Positions 3,419-52,035 of a stretch of DNA of 64,000 bases are shown in pieces. Position numbers and translations under genes: made by a program. Positions within the stretch are counted from its first letter, which is position 1, and the number at the start of each line of letters is the position of its first letter. Origin of the DNA: Haloarcula halobia (GTDB lineage: Archaea; Halobacteriota; Halobacteria; Halobacteriales; Haloarculaceae); NCBI RefSeq assembly GCF_029338255.1, contig NZ_CP119787.1, forward strand, positions 2,046,001 to 2,110,000, read 5' to 3'. The notes under the pieces are model-generated. The model worked only from the letters and a program-made list of their open reading frames with translations. It searched no databases and was not told the origin of the DNA.

Positions 3419-4765
3419 ATGGAGAAGGTCCTCCTCGTCACTATCGACTCTCTGCGGGCCGACCACGTGGGGTACCACGGCTACGACCGGGACGTGACGC
3501 CCAATATCGACGAGCACGCGGCACGCGGCAGCCGGTTCACGAACGCCCACTCGCACGTCGGTGGCACCCGGTTCTCGTTTCCCGGCATCCTGACGGGCGT
3601 GACGCCGATGATGTACGGCGGTCACGAGCGCATCTCGGCGGACCAGACGCTCGTCTCCGAGGTGTTCCACGAGGCCGGCTACCGTACCGGGGGCTTCCAC
3701 TCGAACCTCTACGTGTCCGGACAGTTCGGCTACGACAGGGGCTGGGACGAGTTCTTCGACTCGGCGCCCGACGAGTCGGCGACCTCGAAGTTCCGCAAGT
3801 GGGCGAAGACGAACCTCGACGGGGTCGTGCTCGACGTTCTGAAGAAGGGCTACGACTTCCTCGAGTCCTCACAGGGGATGAACGTCGGGTCGTACCACGT
3901 CCCCGCCGACGAGATGACCGACCGGGCCATCGAGTTCGTCGAGGACACGGGCGACGACCCGACGTTCGCCTGGGTCCACTACATGGACGTCCACCACCCG
4001 TTCCTCCCGCCCGAGGAGTACCAGCGCGAGTTCCTCGACGAACCGGTCTCTCACGAGGAGTCCATCCGGCTTCGCCGGAAGTTCATCGAGAACCCCGACG
4101 ACGTCACCGACGAGGAACACCAGACGTTCATCGACCTCTACGACGCCGAGATCAAGTTCAACGACGCCGAGATCGGCCGCCTGCTCGACGCCGTGGAAGC
4201 CGAGTGGGGCGACGACCACCTGCTGGCGCTGACCGCGGACCACGGCGACCACTTCCTCGAACACGGGTACTTCGGCGGCGCCCGCCTCCTGGAGGTCAAG
4301 AACCACGTCCCGCTGTTCGTGAGCGGGTGGGACGACCAGGGGGAGTACGACGAGCTCGTCGGCCTGACGGACCTGCCGTCGACGCTTGTCGACAGCGCCG
4401 GCCTCGAGATTCCGGACAACTGGTTCGGCTACAGTCTCCGGGACCTGGTGTTCGACGGCGAATGGGCGCGTACCGACGTCATCGGGGGCTACCGTGACGA
4501 GGACGGCGAACACATCCGCGTCAGGGATCCCGAGTGGAATCTCGTGGTTCACGAGGACGAACCCGACGCTCTCTACCACCTCACCGAGGACCCGGGCGAA
4601 CACGAGAACGTCATCGACGAGTACCCCGAGGAGGGACGGCGACTCCGGAAACGGCTCGACGCTCACAGACAGCTCGTGGAGTCGACGGTGGCCGAGGACG
4701 TCGAGCGTCCCGACATGAGCGAGGACGTCAAGGAACGGCTCCGCCGGCTGGGCTACAAGGAGTAG
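3419..4765 (+). CDS. Second sulfatase-fold enzyme of the glycosylation locus, Thr nucleophile
   Basis: A 448-residue paralogue of the gene at 542. It begins MEKVLLVTIDSLRADHVGYHGYDRD and contains LTADHGDHFLEHG, which carries the second metal site. The nucleophile segment reads T50-R-F-S-F-P-G-I-L-T-G, so the sulfatase C/S-x-P-x-R motif is absent and Thr sits at the nucleophile position. Both paralogues end in a similar RLRxLGYxE tail. The ATG at 3419 is chosen because the domain starts there; the only upstream in-frame start adds six unconserved residues. The stop codon abuts the stop of the convergent glycosyltransferase gene with no bases between. It probably modifies or trims a glycan or a lipid head group; the substrate cannot be read from sequence. 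Confidence 0.8.
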   Translation: MEKVLLVTIDSLRADHVGYHGYDRDVTPNIDEHAARGSRFTNAHSHVGGTRFSFPGILTGVTPMMYGGHERISADQTLVSEVFHEAGYRTGGFHSNLYVSGQFGYDRGWDEFFDSAPDESATSKFRKWAKTNLDGVVLDVLKKGYDFLESSQGMNVGSYHVPADEMTDRAIEFVEDTGDDPTFAWVHYMDVHHPFLPPEEYQREFLDEPVSHEESIRLRRKFIENPDDVTDEEHQTFIDLYDAEIKFNDAEIGRLLDAVEAEWGDDHLLALTADHGDHFLEHGYFGGARLLEVKNHVPLFVSGWDDQGEYDELVGLTDLPSTLVDSAGLEIPDNWFGYSLRDLVFDGEWARTDVIGGYRDEDGEHIRVRDPEWNLVVHEDEPDALYHLTEDPGEHENVIDEYPEEGRRLRKRLDAHRQLVESTVAEDVERPDMSEDVKERLRRLGYKE

Positions 4766-5908
4766 TCAGGCGACAACGGCGAGGATCTCGCGATACCGCC
4801 CGCAGGCCGCCTCGAAGCTGTACTCCGATTCTATCAGTTCACGCCCGTTCGCACTCACTTCCGAGAGGTCGTCCCGTCCGAATATCGCCTTGATGCCCGC
4901 ACACAGCGCGGCCGGGTCGCGGCTGTCTATGTGGAACCCCGTCTCCCCGTCTCGGACCACGTCCGGGACCCCCGAGACCGGCGACGCGTACACGGGCGTC
5001 CCACAGGCCAGCGCCTCGAGAATCGTCGTCGGCAAGCCCTCGGTGGGCTGGGAGGGGAGCACGAGCAGGGACAGTCGGTTCAGTTCCGCGGGGACGTCGT
5101 CGTGGTCGACCCAGCCGGCCAGTTGAACCTGCCCGGACTCGATTTCTGTCGCGAGCTCGCCCTCGAGCCACTCGCGGAGGTCGCCGTCGCCGATGAAGCG
5201 GAAGGTGACGTCCGCCGGGAGGTCGCGGGCCACCTCGGCGAGCTCCCGGATTCCCTTTTCCTCGTCGAGTCGCCCGAGGAACCCCACGACCTGCTCGCGG
5301 TCGTCGTAGGGCGTGGCCACGTCGAAGGCGTCGGTCCGGACGTATCGGGCGCCCTGCGGGTACACGTCGGGGGCTTCCGGATGCAGTCCGAGCTGGCGGG
5401 CCATCGCCGGCGTGTAGGTCACGACGCCGTGCGCAGCGGCGAAGCCGGCCCGTTCGAGTGTGCGGACCAGGCCAGCGAGGCCCCGGGCGACCGGGTCTGG
5501 CAGTCGCTGCTCCCAGTTGAGTCGCAACGTGAGCGGCACGTCGCCCCGGGGTTCGACCAGGACGGTCTTGCCGAGGAGTCGCGCGGCGAGTATCGGGAGG
5601 AGATACGACGTCGCGCCGTAGAACAGGACGACGTCCTCGTCGCGGCTCGCGAGCACACGACACATCCGGAGCTGGTTCAGGACGAACCTGGCGGCGGCCA
5701 CGGGGACCGAGTCGCCGGCGCCCTTCTGGGTCAGTTCGATCAGCTCGTGTCGGTCACGAATCTCGGAGTCGGCCGGCAGGTCCGCGGTGACGAGCGAGAC
5801 GACGGTAATCGCCGACAGGATGTCGAGCAGGCTCCGGGTCGCGTTCTCGCCCGCGGCCGCGAGCGGGTGGGTGACCACACAGACGTCGGGGAGAGTGGTG
5901 TCGGGCAT
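4766..5908 (-). CDS. Glycosyltransferase, GT4 family (GT-B fold)
   Basis: A 380-residue protein. Its C-terminal half shows the GT4 nucleotide-sugar site: VVGFLGRLDEEKGI in the hinge, FIGDGDLREWL, and the E-x7-E-type element in PTEGLPTTILEALACGTPV. The N-terminal half is the more variable acceptor domain. It should transfer a sugar from an activated donor to a membrane-linked acceptor during glycan assembly. The ATG at 5908 lies 4 nt after the stop of the upstream GT2 gene, so the two form an operon read toward the sulfatase-fold genes. Donor and acceptor sugars are not predictable here. Confidence 0.87.
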   Translation of the reverse strand: MPDTTLPDVCVVTHPLAAAGENATRSLLDILSAITVVSLVTADLPADSEIRDRHELIELTQKGAGDSVPVAAARFVLNQLRMCRVLASRDEDVVLFYGATSYLLPILAARLLGKTVLVEPRGDVPLTLRLNWEQRLPDPVARGLAGLVRTLERAGFAAAHGVVTYTPAMARQLGLHPEAPDVYPQGARYVRTDAFDVATPYDDREQVVGFLGRLDEEKGIRELAEVARDLPADVTFRFIGDGDLREWLEGELATEIESGQVQLAGWVDHDDVPAELNRLSLLVLPSQPTEGLPTTILEALACGTPVYASPVSGVPDVVRDGETGFHIDSRDPAALCAGIKAIFGRDDLSEVSANGRELIESEYSFEAACGRYREILAVVA

Positions 5909-5912
5909 CGGG

Positions 5913-6857
5913 TTACCCCCACACGTACATGCCATAGAGGTAGCCGACGCCCACCGCACCGGTCAACACGACGAGGAAGACCAGCTGGAGGACCGCCGCG
6001 ACGGACGGCGAGCGAACGAGGCCGCCGAGACGGGCCGGGACGTACGAGAACAGCAGGTCGCCGAGGAAGGCAGACTCCTCGCCGGTCGACTCGGGGACGA
6101 ACACCTCCATCCCGCGTTTCGAGTAGCCCTGCCAGAACGCCCGGTCGACGAGCCACCCCGGGTCGGTCCGGTACTGGAACACCTTGTGGGCCACCAGCGC
6201 GTCCGGGGTGTAGTAGACGCCCGCGTCGTACTCGCTTCGGAGCCGTGCACAGAGTTCGGTCTCGCCGCCCTGCAGGTTCTTCTCGCCCGTCCGCCCGCCG
6301 ATGTCGTCGTCGAACCCGCCCAGGTCTAAGAACACCTCGCGGTCGAAAGAGATGTTCGAACCGAACGTGTTGCGGACCTCGCCGGGTTCGTCCGGGTCGC
6401 CGTCGGGGCCGAACCCGCGATGGGTGACCCCGACGAGCCAGTAGAACTCCTCGGGGAGGAAGGCCGGCTTGCCCGCAACCCACGCCGGGGTCATGCGGCC
6501 ACCGACGGCCAGTACGTCTTCGCGGTCGTACGCACGCACGAGTGCTTCCACCCAGTGCTCGTCGGCGATTGCGTCGTCGTCGATGAACGCGACGACGTCG
6601 CCCGTCGCCACGGCCGCGCCGTTGTTCCGACTCTCGAGCAGGCCGACGTTCTCGTCGTTGCAGTGGGTCAGGACGTCCTCGCGGTCGCCGAAGTCCGCCT
6701 CGTAGCGCTCGTAGACGGCCTCGTCGCCGTCCGAGACCAGCACCAGCTCGACGTCGCCGTAGGTCTGGTCGAGGACGCTCTCGGCCGCCGCGCGACAATC
6801 GTCGTACCGGTCCAACGTGTGCGTACAGAGGACGACCGAGACGCGCATGTCGGGCAT
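5913..6857 (-). CDS. Glycosyltransferase, GT2 family (AglE/AglG/AglI type) with C-terminal membrane segment
   Basis: A 314-residue GT-A protein. It starts MPDMRVSVVLCTHTLDRYDD, has the donor-binding DxD-like motif in VVAFIDDDAIADEHW, and an acceptor-loop motif GGETELCARLR. One or two hydrophobic segments near the C-terminus (VAAVLQLVFLVVLTGAVGVGYLYG) would tether it to the cytoplasmic membrane face, where dolichol-linked glycans are built. The ATG at 6857 (or 6848) is preferred; the long upstream extension is low-complexity. It is divergent from aglB across a 164-nt region, so the glycosyltransferase and transferase genes may share regulation. Confidence 0.85.
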   Translation of the reverse strand: MPDMRVSVVLCTHTLDRYDDCRAAAESVLDQTYGDVELVLVSDGDEAVYERYEADFGDREDVLTHCNDENVGLLESRNNGAAVATGDVVAFIDDDAIADEHWVEALVRAYDREDVLAVGGRMTPAWVAGKPAFLPEEFYWLVGVTHRGFGPDGDPDEPGEVRNTFGSNISFDREVFLDLGGFDDDIGGRTGEKNLQGGETELCARLRSEYDAGVYYTPDALVAHKVFQYRTDPGWLVDRAFWQGYSKRGMEVFVPESTGEESAFLGDLLFSYVPARLGGLVRSPSVAAVLQLVFLVVLTGAVGVGYLYGMYVWG

Positions 6858-6987
6858 TGGACGACCGGCGCTGTTAGTCGTTTCTATCCGCCATGTGGTC
6901 CGTCGCTCGCGGCGGCGCGGGATTCCGAACCGCCAGACCGTCGGCGTGTCGCTGCTGTTCGAGGCGCGCGCTCGTCCAGAGGTCAAA

Positions 6988-44895: not shown

Positions 44896-45399
44896 ATGGA
44901 CTTCGAGGTCATCCAGGGCGACATCGCCGCCCAGTCGGCGGACGTACTGGTCAACGCCGCGAACACGAGCCTCCACATGGGGTCGGGGGTCGCCGGGGCG
45001 CTCAAACGGGCGGCCGGCGGGGGGTTGGACGACGAAGCCGTCTCGAAGGGACCGGTCGAGCTCGGCGGCGTCGCGACGACGGACGCGTACGACCTGGACG
45101 CCGAGTACGTGATCCACGCAGCGGCGATGCCCCCGGGCGGGTCCTCGACGGCCGACAGCATCCGCGACGCCACACGGCACGCCCTCGAAGAGGCCGACGC
45201 GCTGGACTGTGAATCGATGGTCCTCCCGGCGCTCGGGTGCGGCATCGCCGGGTTCGACTTCGAGTCGGGCGTCCGCATCATCTGTGAGACCATCGCGGCG
45301 TTCGACCCCGGCTCGCTCGAGAACGTCCGTCTCATCGCCTACTCCGACGACGACTACGAGCGCATCCGGCGTGTGGCAGACGAGGGACGCACGGCGTGA
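44896..45399 (+). CDS. Macrodomain protein (ADP-ribose binding/hydrolase)
   Basis: A 167-residue single macrodomain. It has the Asn-containing loop VNAANTSLHMGSGVAGAL (residues 19-36), a YVIHAAAMPPGG segment, and the diphosphate loop ALGCGIAGF. Such proteins hydrolyse ADP-ribose 1''-phosphate, O-acetyl-ADP-ribose or mono-ADP-ribosyl groups. A sirtuin, which would generate O-acetyl-ADP-ribose, is encoded in the same window at 57131 but not linked. It overlaps the next gene by 4 nt. Confidence 0.9.
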   Translation: MDFEVIQGDIAAQSADVLVNAANTSLHMGSGVAGALKRAAGGGLDDEAVSKGPVELGGVATTDAYDLDAEYVIHAAAMPPGGSSTADSIRDATRHALEEADALDCESMVLPALGCGIAGFDFESGVRIICETIAAFDPGSLENVRLIAYSDDDYERIRRVADEGRTA

Positions 45400-46664: not shown

Positions 46665-47642
46665 TCACTCGTGTCCGGACACGCGGACCGGTTCGTACGG
46701 GTCTTCGAGCCACTCGACGTCGCTCGCCGAAAGGTCGATATCGAGGGCAGCGACGGCGTCCTCCAGGTGTTCGATGCTCGTGGTTCCGACGATCGGTGCG
46801 TCGACCCACTCCTTCTCGAGGATCCACGCCAGCGCGATCTGGGCCATCGAGGCGTCGTACTCGTCGGCCAGCTCCTCGACGCGTTCGTTGACCTGGCGGC
46901 CGCCGCCATCGAAGTAGGGATGGCCGCGCGCGTGGTCGTCCGTCTCGCCGCGCGTGGTCGCTTCGAACTCCTCGTGGGGCCGGGTGAGATAGCCCCGCGC
47001 GAGCGGACTCCACGGGATGACACCGACGTCCTCCTGCTCACACAGCGGCAGCATCTCGCGTTCCTCCTCCCGGTAGAGGAGGTTGTAGTGGTTCTGCATC
47101 GTCACGAACCGTTCCAGCCTCTCGCGGTCGCTGGTGTGCAGCGACTCGGCGAACTGGTGGGCCCACATCGACGACGCGCCGACGTATCGCGTCTGGTTCC
47201 GGCGCACCAGGTCGTCGAGGGTCCGCATCGTCTGCTCGATGGGCGTGTCGTAGTCCCACCGATGGATCTGATAGAGGTCGACGGTGTCCATCCCCAGACG
47301 CTCCAGTGAGTTCGCACACTCCTGTTCGAGGGCCTTCCGCGAGAGACCGGCGGAGTTGGGATTGTCCTCGTCCATCCGGTGGAACCCCTTCGTCGCGACG
47401 ACCTGTGCGTCGCGCTCGTAGTCCGCGAGGACGTTCCCGAGGACGCGCTCGGACTCGCCCAGCGAGTACATGTTGGCGGTGTCGAAGAAGTTGATGCCCA
47501 GGTCGATGGCGCGCTCGATTATCTCCCTGCTCTCCGGTTCCTCGAGGACCCAGTCCCGCCAGTCGGACGTACCGAAACTCATACACCCCAGACAGAGGCG
47601 GCTGACTTCCACGCCGGTCGAACCGAGTGTCGTGTACTCCAT
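46665..47642 (-). CDS. Aldo/keto reductase
   Basis: A 325-residue TIM-barrel NADPH oxidoreductase. The catalytic tetrad is visible as Asp and Tyr in FFDTANMYSLGESE, Lys in VVATKGF and His in LYQIHRWD. The cofactor loop ILEKEWVDAPIVGTTSIEHLEDAV is near the C-terminus. It is of the YajO/IolS-like subgroup, acting on small carbonyl compounds. An ATG at 47642 is preferred over a GTG two codons upstream. Confidence 0.9.
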   Translation of the reverse strand: MEYTTLGSTGVEVSRLCLGCMSFGTSDWRDWVLEEPESREIIERAIDLGINFFDTANMYSLGESERVLGNVLADYERDAQVVATKGFHRMDEDNPNSAGLSRKALEQECANSLERLGMDTVDLYQIHRWDYDTPIEQTMRTLDDLVRRNQTRYVGASSMWAHQFAESLHTSDRERLERFVTMQNHYNLLYREEEREMLPLCEQEDVGVIPWSPLARGYLTRPHEEFEATTRGETDDHARGHPYFDGGGRQVNERVEELADEYDASMAQIALAWILEKEWVDAPIVGTTSIEHLEDAVAALDIDLSASDVEWLEDPYEPVRVSGHE

Positions 47643-47684
47643 ACCCACACGGCGAGCGCCGGGGATAAAAAGGTAGAACCCGGG

Positions 47685-48770
47685 TCAGAGTCCCTCGGCG
47701 TCGACGGTGCCGACGTACCGCCTGGCGACGGCGTAGGTCCCGACGGCGACGGCAACGGTGGCGACGACGTGGCCGTAGGTCAGCAGCGTCGGACTGTCGA
47801 CGGCGAGTTTCGCCACCGTCGTCGCCGGGTGCTCGGGGAGCAGCACCGCCGCGCCGAAGACGACCAGCGTCACCACCGAATACAGCAGTTGCGCGGGCCG
47901 CCGGCGCTTCGTCGCCAGGCCGAGGACGACGCCGAAGGTCACCACCAGCAGCGCGACGGCCGTGACGAAGACGACGAGCGTCCCCAGGTTGGCGACGGTG
48001 ATGCCGTTCGTCGAGAGCAACAGGACCCACAGCAGCGCCTGGAGCGGCGCGAGGATCACCATCCCCAGCGCCTTGCCGTCGACGATGTCGAGCAGAGAGA
48101 CGGGCGCGACCCGCAGGAGCTCGAGCGTCCCGCGCTCTATCTCCTCGGTGACGACGTCGACGGCGACGGACCCGCTGATAAAGGGCGGGAGGAAGAGCAA
48201 GAGCGGGATCAACACGGTGTAGGTGAACCCGAAGTAGGGGCTCGCGCCGATCTTACGCGGCAGCGGGGCCGGTGGCTCGTCGAGCGAGGCCGCTCGTTCG
48301 ACCCGCTCCTGTCGTTCGAGCGCGTTCAGGACCCGCCGCACCTCCACGACGACGAGTGTCGACCTGATGCTCCCCTCGGGGACCGTCGCGATGACGTCTA
48401 TCGTCCGGCCGCCCCCGTCGGGCGCCGAGACGTACTGGCCGACGAGGACCGCGTCGACGCGGCGGTCCTGGAACGCCTGCCGGGCCCTGTCGGGGTCTTC
48501 GAAGACGGTGGCCCCGGCCCCCTCCTGTTCGCGGGCCGCCTCGAGCAGTTCCGCTCGTGCGTCGCCGGTCACGGCCATCTCGACGTCCTGCGTGGCGACC
48601 GAGGACGGGTCGTACAGCGAGGTCAGGCCCACGACGAGGAAGGACGAGAACCCGGCGACGAACAGCTGGATGAGCAGCGCCAGGACGATCGTCTTCTCGC
48701 GAGACAGCGAGCGCACGTCCCGCTTGGCGACGACGAGACGCGGGTCGCGCCACCAGGGTCGGTCAGACAA
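47685..48770 (-). CDS. ABC transporter permease (ABC-2 type)
   Basis: A 361-residue permease with an N-terminal membrane helix, a large extracytoplasmic loop (about 55-175) and five or six C-terminal helices, including the family segment SGSVAVDVVTEEIERGTLELLRVAPVS. It starts inside the preceding gene with an 8-nt overlap, so it is the last cistron of the three-gene exporter operon (ATPase 50635-51537, permease-protease 48763-50634, this gene). The substrate is unknown; ABC-2 exporters carry drugs, lipids or Na+. Confidence 0.85.
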   Translation of the reverse strand: MSDRPWWRDPRLVVAKRDVRSLSREKTIVLALLIQLFVAGFSSFLVVGLTSLYDPSSVATQDVEMAVTGDARAELLEAAREQEGAGATVFEDPDRARQAFQDRRVDAVLVGQYVSAPDGGGRTIDVIATVPEGSIRSTLVVVEVRRVLNALERQERVERAASLDEPPAPLPRKIGASPYFGFTYTVLIPLLLFLPPFISGSVAVDVVTEEIERGTLELLRVAPVSLLDIVDGKALGMVILAPLQALLWVLLLSTNGITVANLGTLVVFVTAVALLVVTFGVVLGLATKRRRPAQLLYSVVTLVVFGAAVLLPEHPATTVAKLAVDSPTLLTYGHVVATVAVAVGTYAVARRYVGTVDAEGL

Positions 48771-50634
48771 GGCTGGTCACCACCGTGAGGTTGTAGGCGA
48801 AGTGGACGACCACGGCCGCCCCCAGGCCGGCCAGGTAGCCCGACCGGCCCCGCGTCGCCCCGACGGCCGACAGCGCCGCTGTCACCGTGTGCAAGACGAG
48901 CGGCGCGAGCAAGAACAGCAGCGCGACAGCCCACAAGGGCACGCCGGCGGGCGGGGTCGCCCCCTGGAGCGCCGCCTGGCCGATGGGCAGGCTCTCTAAG
49001 TTCGAGAGCCGGGCGATGAGGAGGCCCTTCTCGGCGACGAAAAACCCCAGCCCCGAGAGCGCGCCGAGGCCGAGCGCCGAGCGAACCGTCCGCTCGTACC
49101 GGGCGGCGTCGTAGCCGGCGTAGACGTGCAGGCTCTTTGCTACCTCCTCGACGACGGCGACGACGCCCAGAATCAGCAGGACGCCGAGGGTCTGGTTCGT
49201 CCCGAAGACGTTCAGCGACACCGAGTCGAGGACGAACAGGAACGCGATGGCGACCAGTTCCGCGACGACGACGAAGGGCAGCAGGACGACGCTCATCTTT
49301 GCCGCGCTCCGCCGGGACCTGATGCGCCCCGACAGCGCGTCGAGCACCTTCAGCGGGATGGCGCGCTGGGTGAACATGTCCTCCTCGCGGTAGAGGCCGG
49401 CGCCCAGACCAAAGAGGACGAGCGCCGTCACCAGCGGCGGGAGCGTCGAGAAGGCGAAGGCCGACGGACTGATCGCCTGTCCAGTGAGGTCCATCACGAC
49501 CAGCGTGAGCGGCGAGATGAGCGCGATGGGTGTGATGTCGGTGAAGATGGCCGGGACGAACGCGTAGGAGGTCAACGAGACGGTTATCGTGACGGTGACA
49601 AAGGTCAGTTCCTTGAACGACCGCGCGAACATCGCCCCGCAGAACGTCGCCGCGAGGAAGAGCAAGGCGAGTGGCACCACCGCCAGCACGGCGATGGGAC
49701 TTCCCCCGGGCGCGATACCGCCAAAGCGCAACGTCGCGGTGATGGCCGTCGCCACGCCGACGGCCCCAAGCAGGTACGGGAGCGTCTTGCCCGCGATGAT
49801 GTCGGCCCGCGAGGCGGGCGTCACGAGCAGGAGTTCGCCCCGGCGGTTCAGGCGCTCGGAGAGCATCGACGACCCGTAGGCCTGGATGACGAAGTTCATC
49901 GGGACGATATAGAGGAAGGCGAGCACGAGCGACTCGAAGGGGAACGGCGGGGAGATATCCGACGGCGTGCCGCCCTGCACCTCGCCGGCCAGCCGCCCCC
50001 CGAGGCCGCTCAGACTCGCCCCCCCACCACCGGCCTCGCCGAGGCCGCCATCACTACCGCCCGCGCTCGCACCGCCGTCGGACCCACCGCCGGCACCGGC
50101 GCCACCGCCACCGGCCCCGTCGTCGTTGCCGCCATCGCTGCCGGCGGTCCCACCGTTCTCCCGGGGATCCAGCACGTCGGTGCCGGCCTGCTCCCGGTAG
50201 ACCAGCGTCACCGAGACGGGGAACGCCGCCGTCTGGTTGTCGTCGCCGGCGAGCGTCCGGTCGTTGTACCGCTCGGTGCTGGAGCGGAACTCGTCGAGTG
50301 CAGCGCGTTCCTTGGGCGTCTGCGGGACGCTGACGAGGCGCGTGCCACGGAACAGCAGTTCCTGCTCCCCGCGTTCGACGGCCGCCGGATCCGGGTCCCG
50401 GACGACGAACGTCCCGTCGTCGGCCGCCACGTCGTAAAACGGGCTCGCGTCGTCGACGCCGACGCGGTAGAGGCCGTCGTCCAGGCCGGCGCCACCGCCG
50501 CCGACGGCGATGGCCGCGACGCCCCCCATCGCGACCAGCGACAGCGCCATGACGGCGACGGTCCGCCGGTCGAGTCCGCCGGCGTTCTTGGTGACCTCCC
50601 ACCGCGCGACGCGCAGGAGTTTGTCCCACTCCAT
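48763..50634 (-). CDS. ABC-2 permease fused to a PrsW-type intramembrane protease
   Basis: A 623-residue protein in two parts. Residues 1-420 are an ABC-2 permease: a membrane helix, an extracytoplasmic loop with a long Gly/Ser/Ala-rich spacer (about 165-220), then helices including GSSMLSERLNRRGELLLVTPASRADIIAGK. Residues 440-623 form a PrsW-like domain with the expected acidic and His/Asn motifs in membrane segments: E496-E497-x-x-K500, E535, H582 and H611-x3-N615. PrsW proteases cut anti-sigma factors; this fusion suggests export linked to regulated proteolysis. The gene abuts the ATPase gene with no gap. Confidence 0.82.
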   Translation of the reverse strand: MEWDKLLRVARWEVTKNAGGLDRRTVAVMALSLVAMGGVAAIAVGGGGAGLDDGLYRVGVDDASPFYDVAADDGTFVVRDPDPAAVERGEQELLFRGTRLVSVPQTPKERAALDEFRSSTERYNDRTLAGDDNQTAAFPVSVTLVYREQAGTDVLDPRENGGTAGSDGGNDDGAGGGGAGAGGGSDGGASAGGSDGGLGEAGGGGASLSGLGGRLAGEVQGGTPSDISPPFPFESLVLAFLYIVPMNFVIQAYGSSMLSERLNRRGELLLVTPASRADIIAGKTLPYLLGAVGVATAITATLRFGGIAPGGSPIAVLAVVPLALLFLAATFCGAMFARSFKELTFVTVTITVSLTSYAFVPAIFTDITPIALISPLTLVVMDLTGQAISPSAFAFSTLPPLVTALVLFGLGAGLYREEDMFTQRAIPLKVLDALSGRIRSRRSAAKMSVVLLPFVVVAELVAIAFLFVLDSVSLNVFGTNQTLGVLLILGVVAVVEEVAKSLHVYAGYDAARYERTVRSALGLGALSGLGFFVAEKGLLIARLSNLESLPIGQAALQGATPPAGVPLWAVALLFLLAPLVLHTVTAALSAVGATRGRSGYLAGLGAAVVVHFAYNLTVVTSLV

Positions 50635-51537
<903 letters not shown>

Positions 51538-51597: not shown

Positions 51598-52035
51598 ATG
51601 GTCGCCATCGGCGAGGCGGACGTCTCGGTACAGCAGACGGAGGACGGCCGCCGACTGGTCGTGAGCCACCCCGTCGACGCGTCGCGCGACGCGGTGTGGA
51701 CAGTCCTGACCGACACGGCGCTGTGGCCCGACTGGGGCCCCTCTCTCACCGACGTCGAGGTAGACACCCGGGTCATCGAGGACGGGACGACCGGTCGGGT
51801 CCGGACGGTCGGGGGCCTGTGGCTCCCCTTCGAAGTGACGGCGTGCCGGGCCCACCGGTGGACGTGGGACGTCGCCCGGATACCGGCGACGGGCCACCGG
51901 GCGGACGCGGGGCCCCTGGGCTCACGGGTCGTGTTCGAGATACCCGTACTCGCCGCCGGCTACGTGCCGGTGTGCGTGCGGGCCTGCCGGAACGTGGCGT
52001 CGCTGGCCGCCGGGGAGTCGGCGCCGGAACCCTGA
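51598..52035 (+). CDS. SRPBCC-family (START/Bet v1-like) protein
   Basis: A 145-residue hydrophobic-pocket protein. DGRRLVVSHPVDASRDAVWTVLTDTALWPDWGPSLTDVEVDTRVIEDGTTGRVRTVGGLWLPFEVT is the usual polyketide-cyclase/SRPBCC N-terminal half. Ligand unknown. Divergent from the ABC operon with 60 nt between starts. Confidence 0.75.
   Translation: MVAIGEADVSVQQTEDGRRLVVSHPVDASRDAVWTVLTDTALWPDWGPSLTDVEVDTRVIEDGTTGRVRTVGGLWLPFEVTACRAHRWTWDVARIPATGHRADAGPLGSRVVFEIPVLAAGYVPVCVRACRNVASLAAGESAPEP

Follow-up and report, generated by a model that had tools for sequence, protein, structure and literature searches.

An ABC-2 permease and a PrsW-type intramembrane protease are joined in a single protein of the archaeon Haloarcula halobia. 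The gene for this fusion lies in the window, that is, the whole stretch of 64,000 nucleotides analysed (contig NZ_CP119787.1, positions 2,046,001 to 2,110,000). Together with the ATPase and the second permease encoded next to it, the fusion probably forms a heteromeric ABC-2 exporter with a built-in protease, which may cut a membrane-inserted substrate that the pump handles. That the cutting is directed at this substrate is considered a serious possibility rather than a probability. The span 48763-50634 that the sequence-only reading had given to the fusion was found to be correct, with the gene on the minus strand. The genes of the operon and the parts of the fusion are as follows.

48763..50634, minus strand: fusion of 623 aa, an ABC-2 permease with a C-terminal PrsW-type intramembrane protease (open reading frame; AlphaFold2 model with pLDDT 80 and pTM 0.72)
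50635..51537, minus strand: DrrA/CcmA-like ABC ATPase of 300 aa, directly upstream of the fusion with a 0-nt gap
47685..48770, minus strand: second ABC-2 permease of 361 aa, with its first 8 nt lying inside the end of the fusion gene
49327..50634, minus strand: ABC-2 permease half, residues 1-436, with TM1, an extracytoplasmic part and five more TM helices (Pfam, DSSP, Foldseek)
49966..50181, minus strand: Gly-rich disordered extracytoplasmic loop, residues 152-223, with pLDDT mostly <50; it varies among relatives
49402..49935, minus strand: Pfam ABC2_membrane_3 match, residues 234-411, E=1e-6
49822..49836, minus strand: probable coupling helix, residues 267-271 in RGELLLVTP, a short helix of the model between TM2 and TM3
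48766..49317, minus strand: PrsW-type domain, residues 440-623, with five TM helices, four of which carry one motif each (PF13367, hhalign, model, Foldseek)
49135..49149, minus strand: motif 1, E496-E497-x-x-K500, in TM helix 480-509; invariant in 69/69 diverse fusions
49027..49044, minus strand: motif 2, F531-xxx-E535-K536; E and K in 69/69, F in 68/69
48889..48891, minus strand: motif 3, H582, in 69/69
48790..48804, minus strand: motif 4, H611-xx-Y614-N615; H in 69/69, and position 615 always N or D

The three genes form a tight minus-strand operon in the order ATPase, permease-protease fusion and second permease, and the ATPase gives an ABC_tran match of 2e-31 in Pfam. The fusion is a single open frame of 623 codons with no interruption and is, therefore, not a joining artefact. 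Chance readthrough or faulty assembly is also refuted by homologues of full length, which occur in dozens of genera and in independent assemblies; nothing speaks for it except a frameshifted copy in locus L001. In that locus (4001-6947, Halomicroarcula sp. SYNS111), the fusion frame ends early, at 583 aa, which puts motifs 3 and 4 out of frame; the second permease is broken too. Both look frameshifted, either by decay of the operon or by sequencing indels. The same 583-aa fusion frame is present in genome G332, and another copy (L124, G417:C5) is interrupted, with its N- and C-terminal parts in different frames. The closest named relative found for the window fusion is a protein of Halomicroarcula sp. 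SYNS111, with 95% identity.

The permease half was recognised through Pfam and through the structural model. Its ABC2_membrane_3 score of 28.4 is just below the gathering score of 31.6; among the relatives, 51/69 match ABC2_membrane_3 and 16/69 match ABC2_membrane_2 at E <= 0.1. DSSP places the model helices of this half at residues 23-44, 233-262, 276-304, 313-336, 340-363 and 390-414. The stretch RGELLLVTP is conserved in alignments A1 and A3, and by analogy its short helix is the probable coupling helix of ABC-2 permeases. In a PDB sequence search with the whole fusion protein, the matches were confined to low-complexity sequence of the Gly-rich loop. With the whole model, Foldseek pointed weakly to ABC exporters of the ABCA, ABCH and NosY kinds. 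This output was dominated by the permease and by large alignments of poor quality, and the protease domain was, therefore, folded alone.

When modelled in this way, the domain shows five TM helices with high confidence (pLDDT 87.5, pTM 0.84). PrsW proteases are defined by the motifs EExxK, FxxxE, H and HxxxD/N (PMC12943098, PMC4602095), all four of which are present in the window fusion. The residues E496, E497, K500, E535, H582, H611 and N615, as named beforehand by the sequence-only reading, are all in place; F531 and K536 had gone unmentioned there. The family profile PF13367 is marginal on the window fusion, which scores 25.4 bits (cut-off 23.5) in the genome-wide profile search, and it is absent from the hmmscan list for the whole protein at E <= 1; in relatives, its scores reach 38.6 bits. 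By hhalign, the probability of a match between the fused domain and stand-alone PrsW (31 proteins from the same phylum) is 96.2, with all motifs in register; the corresponding values are 4.4 with CPBP proteins and 0.2 with the second permease, which served as a control. Profile A4, which represents the fused domain, also recovers stand-alone PrsW at E of about 3e-9. On these profile comparisons, the domain is tied to stand-alone PrsW rather than to CPBP. A CPBP identity is further rejected by motif 1, which reads EExxK and not EExxxR. The earlier claim of a true fusion between an ABC-2 permease and a PrsW-type domain is borne out.

In a Foldseek search of the PDB with the domain alone, the top three matches were APH-1 chains of gamma-secretase, and the rest were at background. 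The APH-1 matches have probabilities of 0.98, 0.82 and 0.72, TM-scores from 0.56 to 0.47 and E-values from 0.3 to 0.9. APH-1, PrsW and CPBP are known to belong to one superfamily (PMC6588880, PMC4602095).

The motif residues are strictly conserved. Among the haloarchaeal fusions (the window fusion and 80 relatives), they are invariant in the 79/79 that reach those positions, the gaps being L008 (contig end) and L001 (apparent frameshift). In this set, E496, E497, K500, E535, H582 and H611 are always kept, and position 615 is N, or twice D. They are likewise kept in 54/54 fusions from other families of the phylum, which comprise 14 relatives (most of them 25-32% identical) and the 40 most divergent ones. 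The sequence-only reading had named loss of the motifs beside a retained permease as the observation that would count against it, and what these two sets show is retention throughout. In the alignment of 69 diverse fusions, the well-filled columns without any variation number 17; the residues E496, E497, K500, E535, K536, H582 and H611 make up seven of these, which excludes chance. The pairwise identity of the protease domain in these sequences has a median of 31% and a minimum of 15%. At the level of the alignment, motifs that stay fixed while the domain diverges are what one expects of a functional active site. Such an invariant site makes activity likely, and we infer that the fused PrsW domain is very probably catalytically active.

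It could be argued instead that the domain has lost its protease function and is kept solely to give the permease a membrane scaffold or gate. The domain is indeed trimmed, several conserved residues of stand-alone PrsW are missing from it, and K replaces N after the glutamate of motif 2. This explanation is nevertheless improbable, as the motif residues stay fixed across all 69 diverse sequences, against a median identity of about 31% for the rest of the domain. Furthermore, APH-1, the known non-protease of the superfamily, to which we assign the QExxR variant, has an altered motif 1 (QExxR in place of EExxR).

The K536 that follows E535 is unusual, since the fusions have E-K where 31/31 stand-alone PrsW proteins have E-N. 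The residues D98, E103-P104, D183-G184 and R228 (L082 numbering) are invariant in the stand-alone PrsW of these genomes, and no evident counterpart of them was found in the fused domain by hhalign comparison. Owing to these missing residues and the change from E-N to E-K, the chemistry or the substrate of the fused protease may differ. The genome of the window itself (G000:C1) also carries two ordinary stand-alone PrsW genes, at 937596-938192 and 1260830-1261399, within frames of 351 and 352 aa that have the E-N form of motif 2.

The permease and the protease were also searched for separately in 295 sampled genomes of the phylum. The permease-half profile A3 has matches in 147/295 of them and the protease profile A4 in 145/295, in the same genes. 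All the frames matched by A3 are of fusion length, at least 515 aa, except those of G615 (contig edge) and G417/L124 (interrupted). The two cases matched by A3 only, G412 and G569, were read directly (L157, L158), and the motifs are kept in both. An intact permease of the family of the fusion that lacks the protease domain was not found in these 295 genomes. Given that every intact member of this permease family found there carries the protease, the cargo of the pump is the most economical candidate for what the protease acts on.

Within the class Halobacteria, the fusion is present in 287/391 genomes and 67/86 genera, and it extends to many further families of the phylum. About a quarter of the genomes in the class do without it; hence, the lineage does not depend on it. 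In the tree, the fused domains lie on one side of a fully supported branch (100/100), with stand-alone PrsW on the other, and the fusions form one clade with the diagnostic E-K in motif 2. The simplest reading is that one old fusion would have been inherited with losses; the separating branch is long, and more complex histories are possible.

The conserved neighbours of the fusion are the ATPase and the second permease only. The second permease directly follows the fusion in almost all haloarchaeal loci and in 53/54 others. The ATPase is in line upstream in most haloarchaeal loci; outside the haloarchaea (L114-L189), it is found in 43/54 loci, mostly divergent from the permease pair, and in these 54 loci nothing else is conserved. 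No fourth gene is conserved; an upstream SRPBCC-like gene and a downstream aldo/keto reductase gene recur in under half of the haloarchaeal loci (34/80 and about 33/80, respectively). No gene for a small membrane peptide or other cargo was found to be conserved beside the operon in the haloarchaeal and the 54 other loci. In the window, the SRPBCC-like gene (about 51600-52035, plus strand) is divergent from the operon, the aldo/keto reductase (46665-47648, minus strand) lies downstream of it, and a macro-domain-like protein (GDIAAQSADVLVNAANTS) is encoded at 44896-45399 on the plus strand; all three are named from sequence only. In Halorussus salinisoli, an orphan fusion (L021, 4001-5935) has neither the ATPase nor the second permease nearby, and the same organism carries a normal operon (L024) as well.

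The known role of PrsW in Bacillus is the cutting of the anti-sigma factor RsiW. To our knowledge, sigma factors are absent from archaea, and RsiW cutting is without an obvious archaeal counterpart. The sequence-only reading had proposed that a signal is released when the pump is engaged. In its full form, regulated proteolysis would mean that the pump engages cargo and PrsW then cuts a separate membrane-anchored regulator, thereby switching a response. A sensor fused to the protease would make the cutting pump-dependent, and the single characterised PrsW is a site-1 protease in an antimicrobial-peptide stress response (PMC4602095, PMC12943098). However, neither a regulator nor an anti-sigma-like protein is a conserved neighbour of the operon in the haloarchaeal and the 54 other loci, and where PrsW is fused to other proteins, it is believed to process the polypeptide of which it is part (PMC3482391). 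With no linked anti-sigma-like protein, regulator or substrate, the proposal of signal release found no specific support, and signalling of this kind appears unlikely.

Membrane clearance, in which the protease degrades inserted toxic peptides or damaged small membrane proteins and the ABC part extracts the fragments, is another doubtful candidate, at about one chance in five. Such a system would serve protection and not secretion. Both the PrsW and the CPBP family have links to resistance against antimicrobial peptides and to bacteriocins (PMC6588880, PMC4602095, PMC12943098), and the wide but patchy presence of the fusion fits a protective system. Against this, no linkage to halocin or immunity genes was seen, and PADLOC had no match on either permease, with only generic matches on the ATPase. 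A role in anti-phage defence was rejected on the same PADLOC result for the permeases.

The preferred reading remains cutting and export by one machine. The presence of one ATPase and two permeases per operon suggests a heterodimeric pair of transmembrane domains over an ATPase dimer, and the two permeases probably do assemble as a heterodimer. By the usual ABC-2 topology, the N-terminus of the fusion would lie inside. TM7 to TM11 would constitute the protease, with the motifs at mid-membrane: EExxK in TM8, FxxxEK in TM9, H in TM10 and HxxYN in TM11. While the permeases pair over the ATPase dimer, the protease would cut a peptide inserted in the membrane, or the segment that anchors a small membrane protein there, before or during its extraction, and the same exporter would then bind, extract or release the cut substrate. 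The least certain element is that the protease acts on the own cargo of the pump rather than on a separate target, for which our confidence stops a little short of the halfway mark. It is conceivable, and put forward with somewhat greater reserve, that this is a phylum-wide archaeal machine in which a glutamic intramembrane protease, covalently joined to an ATP-driven ABC-2 exporter, would process membrane-inserted cargo. Such a principle of transport has so far not been demonstrated for PrsW proteases.

Intramembrane proteolysis in archaea is poorly known. A review of the membrane proteases of Haloferax volcanii lists one PrsW-like protein only, HVO_0408 (PMC9263693), and one homologue of the fusion is annotated in its record as a plain ABC transporter permease; the family has, therefore, probably been overlooked as a protease. 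No published fusion of PrsW with an ABC permease was found in the open-access literature. Because the protease belongs to a single exporter, it should be possible to find its substrate. The question can also be tested directly, as relatives of the fusion (L036, L042, L056) are present in haloarchaea that are amenable to genetics, such as Haloferax. If the proposal is true, the fusion would be a well-defined example of mechanical coupling between an intramembrane protease and an ATP-driven transporter.

Several known systems resemble the fusion in part. A permease with a CPBP protease is already catalogued as NCBIfam NF041647, 'ABC transporter permease subunit/CPBP intramembrane protease', and the version with PrsW is apparently new. 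The two share the same kind of architecture and the same protease superfamily; in NF041647, however, the protease is of the CPBP type, with EExxxR in place of EExxK, and the permease part is closer to the second permease than to the fusion. The window fusion scores 18.6 bits against the NF041647 cut-off of 435 and is not a member, and no sampled genome of the phylum passes this cut-off. With ABC-2 exporters of the NatAB, DrrAB and NosFY types, the window system has in common a DrrA-related ATPase, the ABC-2 TM layout and weak fold matches to NosY and ABCA; unlike them, it has two unequal permeases, one of which carries a protease domain. In PCAT exporters, cutting by a C39 peptidase and export are combined in one polypeptide (PMC6959990). 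They offer a working analogy only, as the C39 peptidase is unrelated, being of the soluble cysteine type, and the exporter is of a different type. APH-1 has the nearest solved fold to the domain, but in gamma-secretase it is a subunit and not the protease. PrsW itself (PF13367; MEROPS M82; for example, PrsW/YpdC of Bacillus subtilis) has the same four motifs in the same order and the same four-helix core, and the spacing from motif 1 to motif 2 is 35 residues in both. Most PrsW proteins are said to have eight TM helices (PMC3482391), whereas the fused domain has five, stands behind an ABC-2 permease and is without an anti-sigma partner. From the stand-alone PrsW of archaea, it is set apart by E-K in place of E-N and by the lack of residues such as D183-G184 and R228.
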